Source: Bacillota bacterium (GTDB taxonomy: Bacteria; Bacillota; Bacilli; Alicyclobacillales; Alicyclobacillaceae). Taken from it: DNA of 51,121 bases. Of the stretch, positions 7,090-50,234 are shown piece after piece (the first letter of the stretch is position 1; every line of letters starts with the position of its first letter). Made by a program: the position numbers and the translations under genes. The stretch is taken from assembly GCA_027336365.1 (NCBI GenBank), contig DAHWFY010000003.1, positions 1 to 51,121 on the forward strand, read 5' to 3'. The notes under the pieces were generated by a model. The model was not told where the DNA came from. It searched no databases and saw only the letters and a program-made list of their open reading frames with translations.

Positions 7090-7157
7090 GACCTTCATGC
7101 CGCTGTTAGCGGCACCAGCACGAAAGGTAAATCCACGCAATTGTAATGACTAAATAG
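7090..7157 (+). repeat. Family A repeat copy
   Basis: GACCTTCATGCCGCTGTTAGCGGCACCAGCACGAAAGGTAAATCCACGCAATTGTAATGACTAAATAG. Confidence 0.75.
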
Positions 7158-7231
7158 AGTTAGACGGGGGAACGCTTGTTTGGTATGCTGAAGGTAATAC
7201 AACTTCTTTGCTCATGGAAGGAGAGGGTTTA

Positions 7232-17214: not shown

Positions 17215-17283
17215 GACCTTCATGCCGCTGAGAGCGGCACCAGTATGGAATGTGAATTCACGTCATTGTATTTATTGATTAGG
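17215..17283 (+). repeat. Family A repeat copy
   Basis: GACCTTCATGCCGCTGAGAGCGGCACCAGTATGGAATGTGAATTCACGTCATTGTATTTATTGATTAG. Confidence 0.75.
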
Positions 17284-17312
17284 CTGGTGTATTCCATGAT
17301 GAGTATGTCATA

Positions 17313-24366: not shown

Positions 24367-24434
24367 GACCGCCATGCCGCTGTTAGCGGCACCCGCAAAG
24401 GATGTAAATACATGTGAGTGTATTTACTGGATAG
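24367..24434 (+). repeat. Family A repeat copy
   Basis: GACCGCCATGCCGCTGTTAGCGGCACCCGCAAAGGATGTAAATACATGTGAGTGTATTTACTGGATAG. Confidence 0.8.
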
Positions 24435-24445
24435 ACCCGGAATTC

Positions 24446-28473: not shown

Positions 28474-28541
28474 GCTCTTCATGCCGCTGTTAGCGGCACC
28501 AGCAAGGGATGTAAATCCACATCGCTGTATTTACTGGATAG
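28474..28541 (+). repeat. Family A repeat copy
   Basis: GCTCTTCATGCCGCTGTTAGCGGCACCAGCAAGGGATGTAAATCCACATCGCTGTATTTACTGGATAG. Confidence 0.8.
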
Positions 28542-28642
28542 ATTTTGAGACAAGTATGACGGTCGTTTTCTAGACGAATGTACAGCCCAAACCCACGTAC
28601 AGTCATATAATGTGCAAGGTCTGTGGATGGGGTGACACGAGA

Positions 28643-36257: not shown

Positions 36258-37089
36258 TCCCTTGCTACTGAAAGAATTTCGTCAGCGTATGCGGACTCGC
36301 CGGGCACCTCTGGTGATTATGAGCTATTTTATCAGTATGGCTTTGCTGACGTTTTTATTGCTGTACGAAAACGTCCAGGGGCAACTCACGCTGTTATTGC
36401 CAGCTCGAGGGGAGCAGGTATTTGTCACTTTGGGGCTGTTGCAAATGGCCGTAGTGGTCTTTCTAACTCCTGCATTTGCTGCCGGGGCGGTCAGCGGCGA
36501 GAGAGAACGGCGGACTCTGAGTGTTCTGTTGACCACACCCTTGTCTCCTTTCACTATTTTAATGGGAAAGGTTCTGTCCTCCAGTGCCCTGCTGTTGTTG
36601 CTGGTTATTGTTACCCTGCCCTTGTACAGTTTGGTCTTTTTGTTTGGCGCCGCCGTTCCTCAAGAACTCCTCGGAGTGTTTGGTTTTCAATTAGTGACCG
36701 TTGTCCTGGTGGCCGCAATGAGTGTATGCTGGTCTACCCTGGCGTTGCGCTCTGGTTGGAGTACGGTGTTATCTTACGCCACCGTGACTTGGATGGTTGT
36801 GATTACTGGATTGTTTGGCTATGGGTTGCAATACGCGGCAACACGTTTCCCTATTGATTACTTTTTGCTCAATTGGGGGGAAATTCTGTTACGTCTTAAT
36901 CCCCTGTGGATTGAAGCAGGTCTGGCGGGCGCTGTTCCGGGCAACTTCGGTCAAGATATGTTCTGGTTTTTAGGGTTTTATGGAGTTATTACCGTAATAT
37001 TATGGATATTCAGTGTTGGAAGATTGCGTCCACAAGCATATGCCTTTTCATCGCGGCTAAGGCGTGGCGATGAAAAAGATTTTGAATAG
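36244..37089 (+). CDS. ABC-2 type transporter permease
   Basis: MMRGNPLLLKEFRQRMRTRRAP; AGAVSGERERRTLSVLLTTPLSPFTILMGKVLSS; about 6 TM segments. Confidence 0.85.
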   Translation: MMRGNPLLLKEFRQRMRTRRAPLVIMSYFISMALLTFLLLYENVQGQLTLLLPARGEQVFVTLGLLQMAVVVFLTPAFAAGAVSGERERRTLSVLLTTPLSPFTILMGKVLSSSALLLLLVIVTLPLYSLVFLFGAAVPQELLGVFGFQLVTVVLVAAMSVCWSTLALRSGWSTVLSYATVTWMVVITGLFGYGLQYAATRFPIDYFLLNWGEILLRLNPLWIEAGLAGAVPGNFGQDMFWFLGFYGVITVILWIFSVGRLRPQAYAFSSRLRRGDEKDFE

Positions 37090-37131
37090 ACCCTCATGCC
37101 GCTAACAGCGGCATGAGGGTCTATTCAAGAT
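37079..37131. repeat. Large palindrome (25-bp stem, 3-nt loop) derived from the family A end; may act as terminator
   Basis: TTGAATAGACCCTCATGCCGCT-AAC-AGCGGCATGAGGGTCTATTCAA (22 perfect bp), extended outward 3 bp with one wobble; contains the permease stop codon. Confidence 0.85.
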
Positions 37132-38825: not shown

Positions 38826-38889
38826 CCAGTAAATACAGTAACGCAGATTTACATTCCTTGCTGGTGCCGCTAACAGCGGCATGAAGGTC
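38826..38889 (-). repeat. Family A repeat copy (reverse orientation)
   Basis: CCAGTAAATACAGTAACGCAGATTTACATTCCTTGCTGGTGCCGCTAACAGCGGCATGAAGGTC. Confidence 0.8.
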
Positions 38890-38951
38890 TAATCCTGGAC
38901 GCCATCCATGAGAGAAGCATATTTGGACGGGCCGACACGTACAGTCTATGG

Positions 38952-43940: not shown

Positions 43941-44296
43941 TTGACAGACATTTTTGCAATGGCTATACTCAAAAATACAAGTAAATTGGGACACGAAGAT
44001 TCAATGCCGAGGAGAAGTAACCTTCTACCGATGTTCAGAGAGACCTGCCTGAGGCTGTGAGTAGGTTCACTGGTGAAAGGTGAAAGACACCTCTAAGAAC
44101 TGGCGTGAACGGAGACTTGTGATGTCCGGTCGGAATGAGTTGTGTCGTCGGACTCGGCTTGCATATTCTCCTAAAGCATCGGCGGTTGTGCCCGTTACAG
44201 CGCAAGAGTGGGACCTTAGGGTCCAATCAGGGTGGTACCACGGAGAGTTCCTTCGTCCCTGTCCGTAGCGGCAGGGCGGAGGAACTTTTTTGTTGC
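43941..44296 (+). ncRNA. T-box leader of hisS-aspS (with promoter and terminator)
   Basis: TTGACA-N17-TATACT (43941-43969); AGAGAG; T-box CAGGGTGGTACCACGG (44228-44243); terminator AGTTCCTTCGTCCCTG...CAGGGCGGAGGAACTTTTTT. Confidence 0.9.
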
Positions 44297-47439: not shown

Positions 47440-47499
47440 TAGGATATAGGCAAGCGGCAAGGCAGATTGTCTTGTAGCACTTGACGAAAAAGAGAATCA

Positions 47500-47680
47500 T
47501 CCCTGCGCTGTTAGTGATGGCCTAGGTGTTTTGAGCCAACACCATTTTTCGGGGAGTTCGACGTCTCGGCGGTACGCACATGCCTCGAGGAGGTTGCTTG
47601 AGGACGTTGCAAGCAGTTGAGCAGGACACCCACCTGCGAGAGCAGGTTCAAAACGAAGGGCTGCACGGCAAGTGCGGGGA
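47500..47680 (+). ncRNA. ssrS: 6S RNA
   Basis: Closing stem TCCCTGCGCT...AGTGCGGGGA; internal GGTGTTTTGAGCCAACACC and CACCTGCGAGAGCAGGTTCAAAACGAAGGGCTGCACGG; location between aspS and rarA matches the known Bacillus arrangement. Confidence 0.75.
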
Positions 47681-47730
47681 TGGTTTTCATTGATGAAGGC
47701 TGTAAGTGCTTATTTAAATATGGTTTTCAG

Positions 47731-47898: not shown

Positions 47899-49167
47899 GT
47901 GGACTTGTTTTCAGCGGCGGCAGATAGGGAACAGCAACAAACGGCCCCTCTGGCCTTCCGCATGCGACCACAAAGGCTGGCCGAGGTCGTCGGGCAGCAG
48001 CACATCTTGGCTCCTGGCAGTTTGCTGCATCGGGCCATCCAGGCAGACCGACTCGTATCCTTAATTCTATTTGGACCTCCGGGCAGTGGAAAAACCACTT
48101 TGGCGGAAGTGATTGCCTGCACGACAAAGGCTCGTTTTGAGACTTTGAATGCCGTGTCCGCAGGGATTGCGGACATTCGGGCAGTGGTGGAGCGAGCCAA
48201 AGAAGAACGGGCATTACACGGTCGAAAGACGGTGTTGTTCATTGACGAAATCCACCGTTTTAACAAGGGGCAGCAAGACGCACTGCTGCCTTTTGTTGAA
48301 CAGGGACTACTGACCTTGGTGGGAGCAACCACAGAGAATCCGTATTTTCAGGTAAATCCAGCACTCGTTTCTCGTTCCCATGTGTTCCGATTACATCCTT
48401 TAGGTCCCGAGGATATTCGTGTCTTGTTGCGTCGTGCCATTGCCGACAAACAGCGTGGATTGGGGGAGATGGGGTTAGACTTGACACCGACCGCAGAGCG
48501 GGTGCTGGTGGAGTTGTCTGGGGGGGACGCCCGGCGGGCATTGAATGCCTTGGAACTCGCGGCTTTAACCAGCCCCTTGAATGAGGACGGCAGGGTGGTT
48601 TTGGACGAACCGCAAGTTCGGGAGTCCATTCAAGAGCGTCAGGTACTGTATGACCGCAGCGGGGATGAGCACTATGACACCATTTCCGCGTTTATTAAAT
48701 CTATCCGCGGTTCGGATGTGGATGCGGCCTTGTTGTGGTTGGCAAAAATGCTGACTGCGGGTGAGGATCCACTATTTGTTGGCCGTAGGTTGATGATTTT
48801 GGCGGCAGAAGATGTGGGGAATGCGGATTCTCAGGCACTTCCGCTAGCAGTGGCGGGATATCAGGCGGTGGCAACGGTGGGCATGCCGGAAGCCCGCATC
48901 GTATTAGCTCAGGTAACCTCATATTTGGCCTGTGCACCTAAATCAAATGCGGCTTACCGCGCCATCGGCGAGGCATTGGCGGATGTACAGTCTGGAATGT
49001 CATTGGTTGTTCCACCCCACCTGCGTTCCACAGGCTATCGGGGAGCGGAAAAACTGGGTTCTGGTGTGGGCTACCTGTACCCTCATGACTATCCAGAACA
49101 CCATGTGGAGCAGAGCTATTGGCCGCAAATGGTACAGCCGAAAAAGTATTATCAACCTGTTCAATAA
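47899..49167 (+). CDS. rarA: Replication-associated recombination protein A (RarA/MgsA AAA ATPase)
   Basis: MRPQRLAEVVGQQHILAPGSLL, ILFGPPGSGKTTLAEVIA, FIDEIHRFNKGQQDALLPFVE. Confidence 0.96.
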   Translation: MDLFSAAADREQQQTAPLAFRMRPQRLAEVVGQQHILAPGSLLHRAIQADRLVSLILFGPPGSGKTTLAEVIACTTKARFETLNAVSAGIADIRAVVERAKEERALHGRKTVLFIDEIHRFNKGQQDALLPFVEQGLLTLVGATTENPYFQVNPALVSRSHVFRLHPLGPEDIRVLLRRAIADKQRGLGEMGLDLTPTAERVLVELSGGDARRALNALELAALTSPLNEDGRVVLDEPQVRESIQERQVLYDRSGDEHYDTISAFIKSIRGSDVDAALLWLAKMLTAGEDPLFVGRRLMILAAEDVGNADSQALPLAVAGYQAVATVGMPEARIVLAQVTSYLACAPKSNAAYRAIGEALADVQSGMSLVVPPHLRSTGYRGAEKLGSGVGYLYPHDYPEHHVEQSYWPQMVQPKKYYQPVQ

Positions 49168-49224
49168 ATACAATTGCGTGGATTTATCTTTCTTGCTGGT
49201 GCCGCTAACAGCGGCATGAGGGTC
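49162..49224 (-). repeat. Family A repeat copy (reverse), overlapping the rarA stop codon
   Basis: CAATAAATACAATTGCGTGGATTTATCTTTCTTGCTGGTGCCGCTAACAGCGGCATGAGGGTC. Confidence 0.8.
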
Positions 49225-49228
49225 TCAC

Positions 49229-49287
49229 TGATAGTGTGTCCGGAAAGGGTTGGGGTCAGACCCCCCTTCCGGACAACCTCTGATAGG
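49229..49287. repeat. Family B element, compact near-perfect hairpin
   Basis: GTCCGGAAAGGGTTGGGGTCAGACCCCCCTTCCGGAC with flanking TGATAG on both sides. Confidence 0.8.
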
Positions 49288-49297
49288 AGATGGATGC

Positions 49298-49708
49298 GTG
49301 AAAATCTCGACGCGAGGCCGCTATGGGCTGATGTTGCTGGTTGATCTGGCTCAAAACGATTCTGGTCATCCAATTTCACTCAAAGCTGTGGCAGAACGCC
49401 AGGGTTTGTCTGAACACTACTTGGAGCAACTGATTGCTCCGTTGCGTAATGCGGGGCTAGTACGCAGTATTCGGGGAGCGTACGGGGGATATGTATTGGC
49501 CAAGTCATCCGGAGAGATGACAGTGGAACAAGTATTATCTCTGCTGGAAGGGCCGGTAACCATTGTCGATGAGGATTTGGATGATGGTTTTGAACCATTG
49601 TGGGACCGCTTGCGCAACGCTATTCAGGAGGTTCTTTCTGGGGTGACCATCCAGGACTTGTCTGAAATGAGAATACATCAGGATGGTAGTTACATGTATT
49701 ATATATAA
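49298..49708 (+). CDS. Rrf2-family regulator (CymR-like)
   Basis: MKISTRGRYGLMLLVDLAQNDSGHPISLKAVAERQGLSEHYLEQLIAPLRNAGLVRSIRGAYGGYVLAK. Confidence 0.92.
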   Translation: MKISTRGRYGLMLLVDLAQNDSGHPISLKAVAERQGLSEHYLEQLIAPLRNAGLVRSIRGAYGGYVLAKSSGEMTVEQVLSLLEGPVTIVDEDLDDGFEPLWDRLRNAIQEVLSGVTIQDLSEMRIHQDGSYMYYI

Positions 49709-49817
49709 AAACTCCTGGGGGAAAATAACGGATTGTCAGTGCCTTTGCTTTGTCGCTGAAATGTCATACCCCCCGCTAAAAGCCTTCATTTCCTAAAGGT
49801 ATCTACCAATTAATTCA

Positions 49818-49944
49818 TTGTCAAGGTCTTAGACTGTGTCTATAATAGTGTGTCGGATAGTGTTGGATGGGGTTGCTTTTTAAATGATATGGGCGTGTCC
49901 GTTGCGGATGACCTTTCCGGACCCGCACACTTTCGTTTTTTTTT
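49818..49944 (+). ncRNA. Candidate structured RNA or leader with consensus promoter and terminator, related to family B
   Basis: TTGTCA (49818-49823), 17-nt spacer, TATAAT (49841-49846); AGTGTG...CACACT closing pair; hairpin GCGTGTCCG...CGGACCCGC; ends TTTCGTTTTTTTTT. Confidence 0.5.
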
Positions 49945-50042
49945 GACTCGCACTCATACAAATTCATGTTGTTTACATTTTTGGATTTCCGGACAAACTG
50001 TTGTAGGTCGATAGGTGCATATTATGCAAAGGAGACGGAGTC

Positions 50043-50234
50043 ATGCGTTGTCCACATTGCAATTCGCGGGACTTTGGCAAGATCGGTGCCAATCAGTTTT
50101 ATTGTTGGGGATGTTTTATGGAATTTAACGTGTCTGGTGAAGATATCCGAATTTACGAGGTTGCTGAAGACGGTTCTCTGGTAGCCCTGGATGAGGTGCC
50201 TGAGGCCATGAGCGTAGAGTCGAGTACCGCGTGA
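50043..50234 (+). CDS. Small zinc-ribbon protein
   Basis: MRCPHCNSRDFGKIGANQFYCWGCFMEFNV (CxxC...CxxC); AAGGAGACGGAGTC upstream of ATG. Confidence 0.8.
   Translation: MRCPHCNSRDFGKIGANQFYCWGCFMEFNVSGEDIRIYEVAEDGSLVALDEVPEAMSVESSTA

Follow-up and report, generated by a model that had tools for sequence, protein, structure and literature searches.

The window, the whole 51,121-nucleotide stretch of DNA, is contig 300 of an Alicyclobacillaceae draft genome of 3.14 Mb in 366 contigs (83% complete). The region of interest separates an Rrf2-type regulator gene from a small open reading frame of zinc-ribbon type (Table 1). Searched with the NCBIfam CymR model, the regulator scores 184.3 bits, below the cut-off of 195, and is referred to here as CymR-like. 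A plasmid search returned no match. An earlier note, made from the letters of this DNA, had placed in the region an RNA candidate with its own promoter and terminator, upstream of a CxxC protein gene starting at 50043; that gene is present as described.

Two comparison sets were used. The leader was aligned with that of a single congener, Alicyclobacillaceae bacterium I2511 (G001; loci L017/L046), referred to as the sister genome. Sequence patterns were counted across a family set of 31 loci, made up of 30 named Alicyclobacillaceae loci and the window, which share descent and therefore do not provide independent counts.

Table 1 Features of the locus and of the wider window, in window coordinates
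Feature	Position	Strand	Remarks
Second repeat family, seven copies	7093-7164, 17218-17289, 24370-24441, 28477-28548, 37059-37122, 38827-38890, 49162-49225
T-box leader	43995-44263		before hisS-aspS; above the Rfam gathering score
6S RNA	47497-47684		between aspS and rarA; above the Rfam gathering score
rarA	47899-49167		first in the local gene order before the zinc-ribbon gene
Short family B copy	49234-49280 (49229-49285 with duplications)	.	TGATA on both sides; not part of the leader
CymR-like Rrf2 regulator gene	ends 49708		between rarA and the intergenic region
Intergenic region			334 bases, from the CymR-like gene to the zinc-ribbon open reading frame
P1, sigma-A-type promoter	49818-49846	+	TTGTCA (49818-49823), N17, TATAAT (49841-49846)
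AGTGTG, proposed left closing strand	49847-49852	+	directly after the −10 box, before the expected start
P1 start, predicted	near 49853	+	same figure as in the earlier note
Leader, P1 start to P2	49853-49970	+	middle part fast-evolving, without a conserved RNA
Internal hairpin region	49893-49928	+	GCGTGTCCG (49893-49901)...CGGACCCGC (49918-49926)(AC)
CACACT, proposed right closing strand	49926-49931	+
TTCG and T9 tail	49932-49944	+	T9 at 49936-49944; possible lineage-specific terminator tail
P2, sigma-F-type promoter	49971-50000	+	GTTTA (49971-49975), N15, GGACAAACTG (49991-50000)
Ribosome-binding site	50028-50034	+	AAAGGAG, before the zinc-ribbon open reading frame
Zinc-ribbon-type open reading frame	50043-50234	+	63 aa; CPHC and CWGC motifs
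Two crcB genes			after the zinc-ribbon gene, on the opposite strand

The upstream promoter, P1

The near-consensus sigma-A promoter reported in the earlier note is borne out. P1 shares 11 of the 12 bases of TTGACA/TATAAT, has a spacer of 17 nt (16–18 being accepted in our test), and is conserved in relatives. The hexamers alone prove little, since about one site passes the looser threshold of the promoter scan when the region is shuffled. In the sister genome, 44 of the 49 bases of the P1 region (49804-49852) are identical (90%). A counterpart with the pattern CATTG[CT]-N18-20-TA...T lies upstream of the same gene at 23 of the 31 family loci, against a shuffle mean of 0.23, and the distribution of P1 spacers across these loci peaks at 17. 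This conservation supports a putative sigma-A promoter ahead of the zinc-ribbon gene.

The relatives depart from ordinary sigma-A promoters in that the −35 side of P1 sits inside a longer conserved box, TatCCAaTTtcTGCATTGCaa, which corresponds to about 49804-49823 in the window. The box may be an additional binding site, possibly an operator for a regulator; with up to two mismatches allowed, it was not found as a repeated operator elsewhere in the relatives' genomes. An 18-mer unrelated to this box, CCAATTTCTGAATTCCAA, is itself repeated, with up to 11 occurrences per genome in G003, G010, and G012.

The leader between the promoters

The letters on which the RNA candidate was built are all in place: the arms GCGTGTCCG and CGGACCCGC, the CACACT, and TTTCG followed by nine T. 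The AGTGTG/CACACT stem that was said to close the structure cannot form in an RNA with the predicted P1 start, because AGTGTG comes before that start, immediately after the −10 box; it is most likely untranscribed. The earlier note had suggested folding as one check, and it gives a structured RNA or leader attenuator no support. The segment 49848-49950 has a folding energy of −25.2 kcal/mol, equal to the mean of its shuffles (z = 0.00), and 49853-49944, at −19.9 kcal/mol, folds less stably than the mean of its shuffles, −22.5 (z = +0.78). Of the 26 base pairs in the predicted fold, only 14 are kept in the sister genome, and MAFFT alignment of the family leaders, whose lengths range from about 40 to more than 200 nt, yielded no common core. 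No inverted repeats with 10-nt arms were detected in 49700-50060.

Alignment with the sister genome locates the divergence. The first 22 bases of the leader are largely shared (18/22), as are the bases that follow the T-run (21/26), while identity drops to 27/60 (45%) in the middle of the leader and to 6/13 (46%) in the T-run. No part of the intergenic region is less conserved than the block formed by the hairpin and the T-run, and by this measure that block is free to drift. This comparison involves one genome pair, so the hairpin and T-run may have a recent function restricted to this lineage. Relatives that keep the zinc-ribbon gene lack an equivalent leader, an absence that the earlier note had itself counted against its reading. 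The proposed regulatory RNA is not conserved and carries no sign of function.

The idea that a riboswitch or attenuator puts the zinc-ribbon gene under the control of a metal or redox signal has one point in its favour, the long leader before a CxxC gene, and is very hard to credit. Rfam searches of the window leader at the gathering level, and of the leaders of 20 relatives at lax E-values, returned nothing relevant, in agreement with the earlier note, which had recognised no known riboswitch class. Such an element would also have to reside in leaders that share no sequence and differ severalfold in length, within the block that changes fastest in the region.

A lineage-specific terminator at the T-run is possible. 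If one operates, P1 could, in this lineage only, give rise to a short RNA, some 90 nt long, with its 3' end at the T-run, and the gene would be transcribed mainly from P2. An alternative helix that lies wholly inside the RNA, CGGAUAGUGUUGG paired with CCGCACACUUUCG, forms a long-loop hairpin that ends directly against the run of nine U (−19.2 kcal/mol), and at the corresponding place the sister genome has a small GC-containing hairpin just before a U tract, which is shorter there. We nevertheless regard this short RNA as unlikely: the fold is no better than that of shuffles, a simple terminator scan of the region found none, and neither the T-run nor the stem is conserved, with 12 of the 26 pairs broken in the sister genome. 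Across the 31 family leaders, terminators showed no consistent signal relative to shuffles, and in many relatives no candidate emerges even when the criteria are relaxed.

The leader hairpin may derive in part from a mobile repeat. The repeat named family B in the earlier note (loci L239-L254) is a MITE. It has inverted ends and 5-bp A/T-rich target duplications (TAATA, TTATA, TTAAA, and CATTA among others). It occurs in a long form of about 156 nt and a short form of about 49 nt, which begin with GTGYGTGTCCGGAAAGG and end with CCTTTCCGGACAACCTC; tens of copies are present in this genome and in I2511, and some in G003. A literature search returned no report of an Alicyclobacillus MITE. The right arm of the hairpin, CCTTTCCGGACCCGCAC (49912-49928), agrees with family B's inverted left end at 16 of 17 positions, which none of 200 shuffles equalled at match 2/mismatch −3 and 0–9 of 200 equalled under laxer scoring. 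MITE ends are inverted repeats, which explains why the leader hairpin looks designed, and a mobile-repeat fragment inside a leader can thus imitate a structured RNA.

The resemblance of both edges to family B, as first described, holds for the right edge. The left edge is weak: it is conserved in the sister genome, where 13–27 of 200 shuffles score as well against the repeat. It remains that this edge resembles the MITE start and stands beside a TAATA-like site, which together with the right arm could make the whole of 49848-49930 a decayed family B copy turned into a transcribed RNA. That origin is improbable. A MITE copy has two inverted ends and a 5-bp duplication, of which one end is found here; no matching target duplication flanks the two sides, and both edges would have to correspond to one and the same MITE end. 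The leaders of the window and the sister genome are of nearly equal length (117 and 120 nt), so no clean insertion is visible. Without a target duplication or a convincing left edge, this piece of the leader can be no more than a fragment of the MITE. The suspected origin of the internal hairpin from the repeat is partly supported; the transcribed RNA that was to have arisen from it is unsupported.

A second repeat family (CTTCATGCCGCTGTTAGCGGCACC...), of about 64–72 bases with a short near-perfect palindrome, is also present in the window, and one of its copies overlaps the end of rarA.

A probable sigma-F-type promoter close to the gene

Downstream of the drifting block lies a conserved promoter of forespore type, P2, which is a new point: the earlier note had missed it, and it is the better-conserved control element. 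In the sister genome, 27 of 29 bases of P2 are identical (93%). A loose form of the P2 pattern occurs at 28 of the 31 family loci and is absent from three, compared with a mean of 1.39 and a maximum of 7 in shuffles and a single occurrence on the reverse strand. The strict form occurs at 17 of the 31 loci (shuffle mean 0.15, maximum 2; none on the reverse strand). The spacer preference across the family loci is sharp: 15 is found in 21 loci, and no other length in more than 9; when a fuller −10 box is required, 15 is found in 19 loci, and no other length in more than 2.

The same arrangement extends beyond the family. Bacillaceae loci carry GTATA-N15-GG.CA in nine of nine cases, with none at spacers 12–14 or 16–18, and in the second family of the order G[AT]TTA-N15-GG is found with a spacer of 15 at 7 of 14 loci. 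A point that weighs against P2 is its distance from the start codon, which exceeds 100 nt in several species.

The consensus of sigma-F promoters in Bacillus subtilis is GTATA / GGNAANAMTR (PMC3416734 Table 4, after Wang et al. 2006). By hand count, P2 agrees with it at 11 of the 13 specified bases, and both its boxes and its spacing are of sigma-F type. It differs from the B. subtilis promoters in having GTTTA rather than GTATA at −35 and a C at one −10 position, a difference shared by the spoIIR sites of the same family of genomes, which have the same form as P2. Because spoIIR is a known sigma-F target (PMC3416734), it served as a positive control: several of the same genomes have GTTTA-N15-GG(G)CAGACT-type sites there, with a spacer of 15 in 8 loci and no other spacer in more than 2. 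The genome of the window encodes sigF (G000:C277, 352.5 bits against a cut-off of 321.45) and gpr. As a second control, gpr showed no excess of the sigma-F-type motif, and the strict P2 pattern shows no enrichment across the genome, where it matches 6 times and the reversed control 15 times, so that the case for P2 rests on its conserved position and spacing. TIGR02871, the family first chosen as a sigma-F control, was dropped, as it is ylbJ. Judged from its sequence, P2 is most likely a sigma-F-type promoter of the forespore, which sigma-G may read as well.

The zinc-ribbon gene and its two predicted promoters

The region is an ordinary promoter region, rightly spotted and wrongly read as an RNA. 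We consider it very probable that it functions as a dual-promoter control region of the zinc-ribbon gene, of sigma-A and sigma-F type, with a drifting leader between the two. P1 would provide a basal level of transcription in vegetative cells, its transcripts having a long untranslated leader, and P2 would provide a start in the forespore, at the time of sporulation, close to the ribosome-binding site, where the region 50028-50042 is identical in the sister genome at all 15 positions. The stretch between P1 and P2, including the hairpin and T-run, would then be an unconstrained spacer that holds the remnant of a MITE end. From the promoter patterns we infer transcription from both P1 and P2, expression in the forespore, and read-through from P1 into the gene.

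The 63-aa protein was found in 39 of the 41 genomes searched, and also in Bacillaceae, Paenibacillus, Syntrophomonas, Pelotomaculum, and Carboxydocella. Neither Pfam nor NCBIfam gave a match to it above cut-off, and a search of the PDB gave no useful match. A literature search returned no small zinc protein with sigma-F promoters and no link between yrrI, the neighbouring transporter gene, and the forespore. CsfB/Gin, a small zinc protein of the sigma-F regulon, is alike in general features: about 60 aa, two cysteine pairs, and a forespore promoter, which for the 63-aa protein is predicted.

A conserved small zinc-ribbon gene with housekeeping and forespore promoters is a candidate sporulation gene, and this is a testable prediction. 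Somewhat tentatively, we suggest that the protein could belong to the sigma-F regulon as a member yet to be characterised, conserved in several spore-forming lineages of Firmicutes. It would act early in the forespore, perhaps as a small regulator or as a sulfur- or Fe-S-related factor. The latter role is suggested by gene order, since in many Alicyclobacillus relatives a cysteine desulfurase gene lies directly upstream of the zinc-ribbon gene (open reading frames read by eye). Elsewhere, again from reading frames inspected by eye, the zinc-ribbon gene adjoins a gene for an AI-2E-type transporter. The window and I2511 have no cysteine desulfurase at that place, and there the CymR-like gene directly precedes the zinc-ribbon gene.
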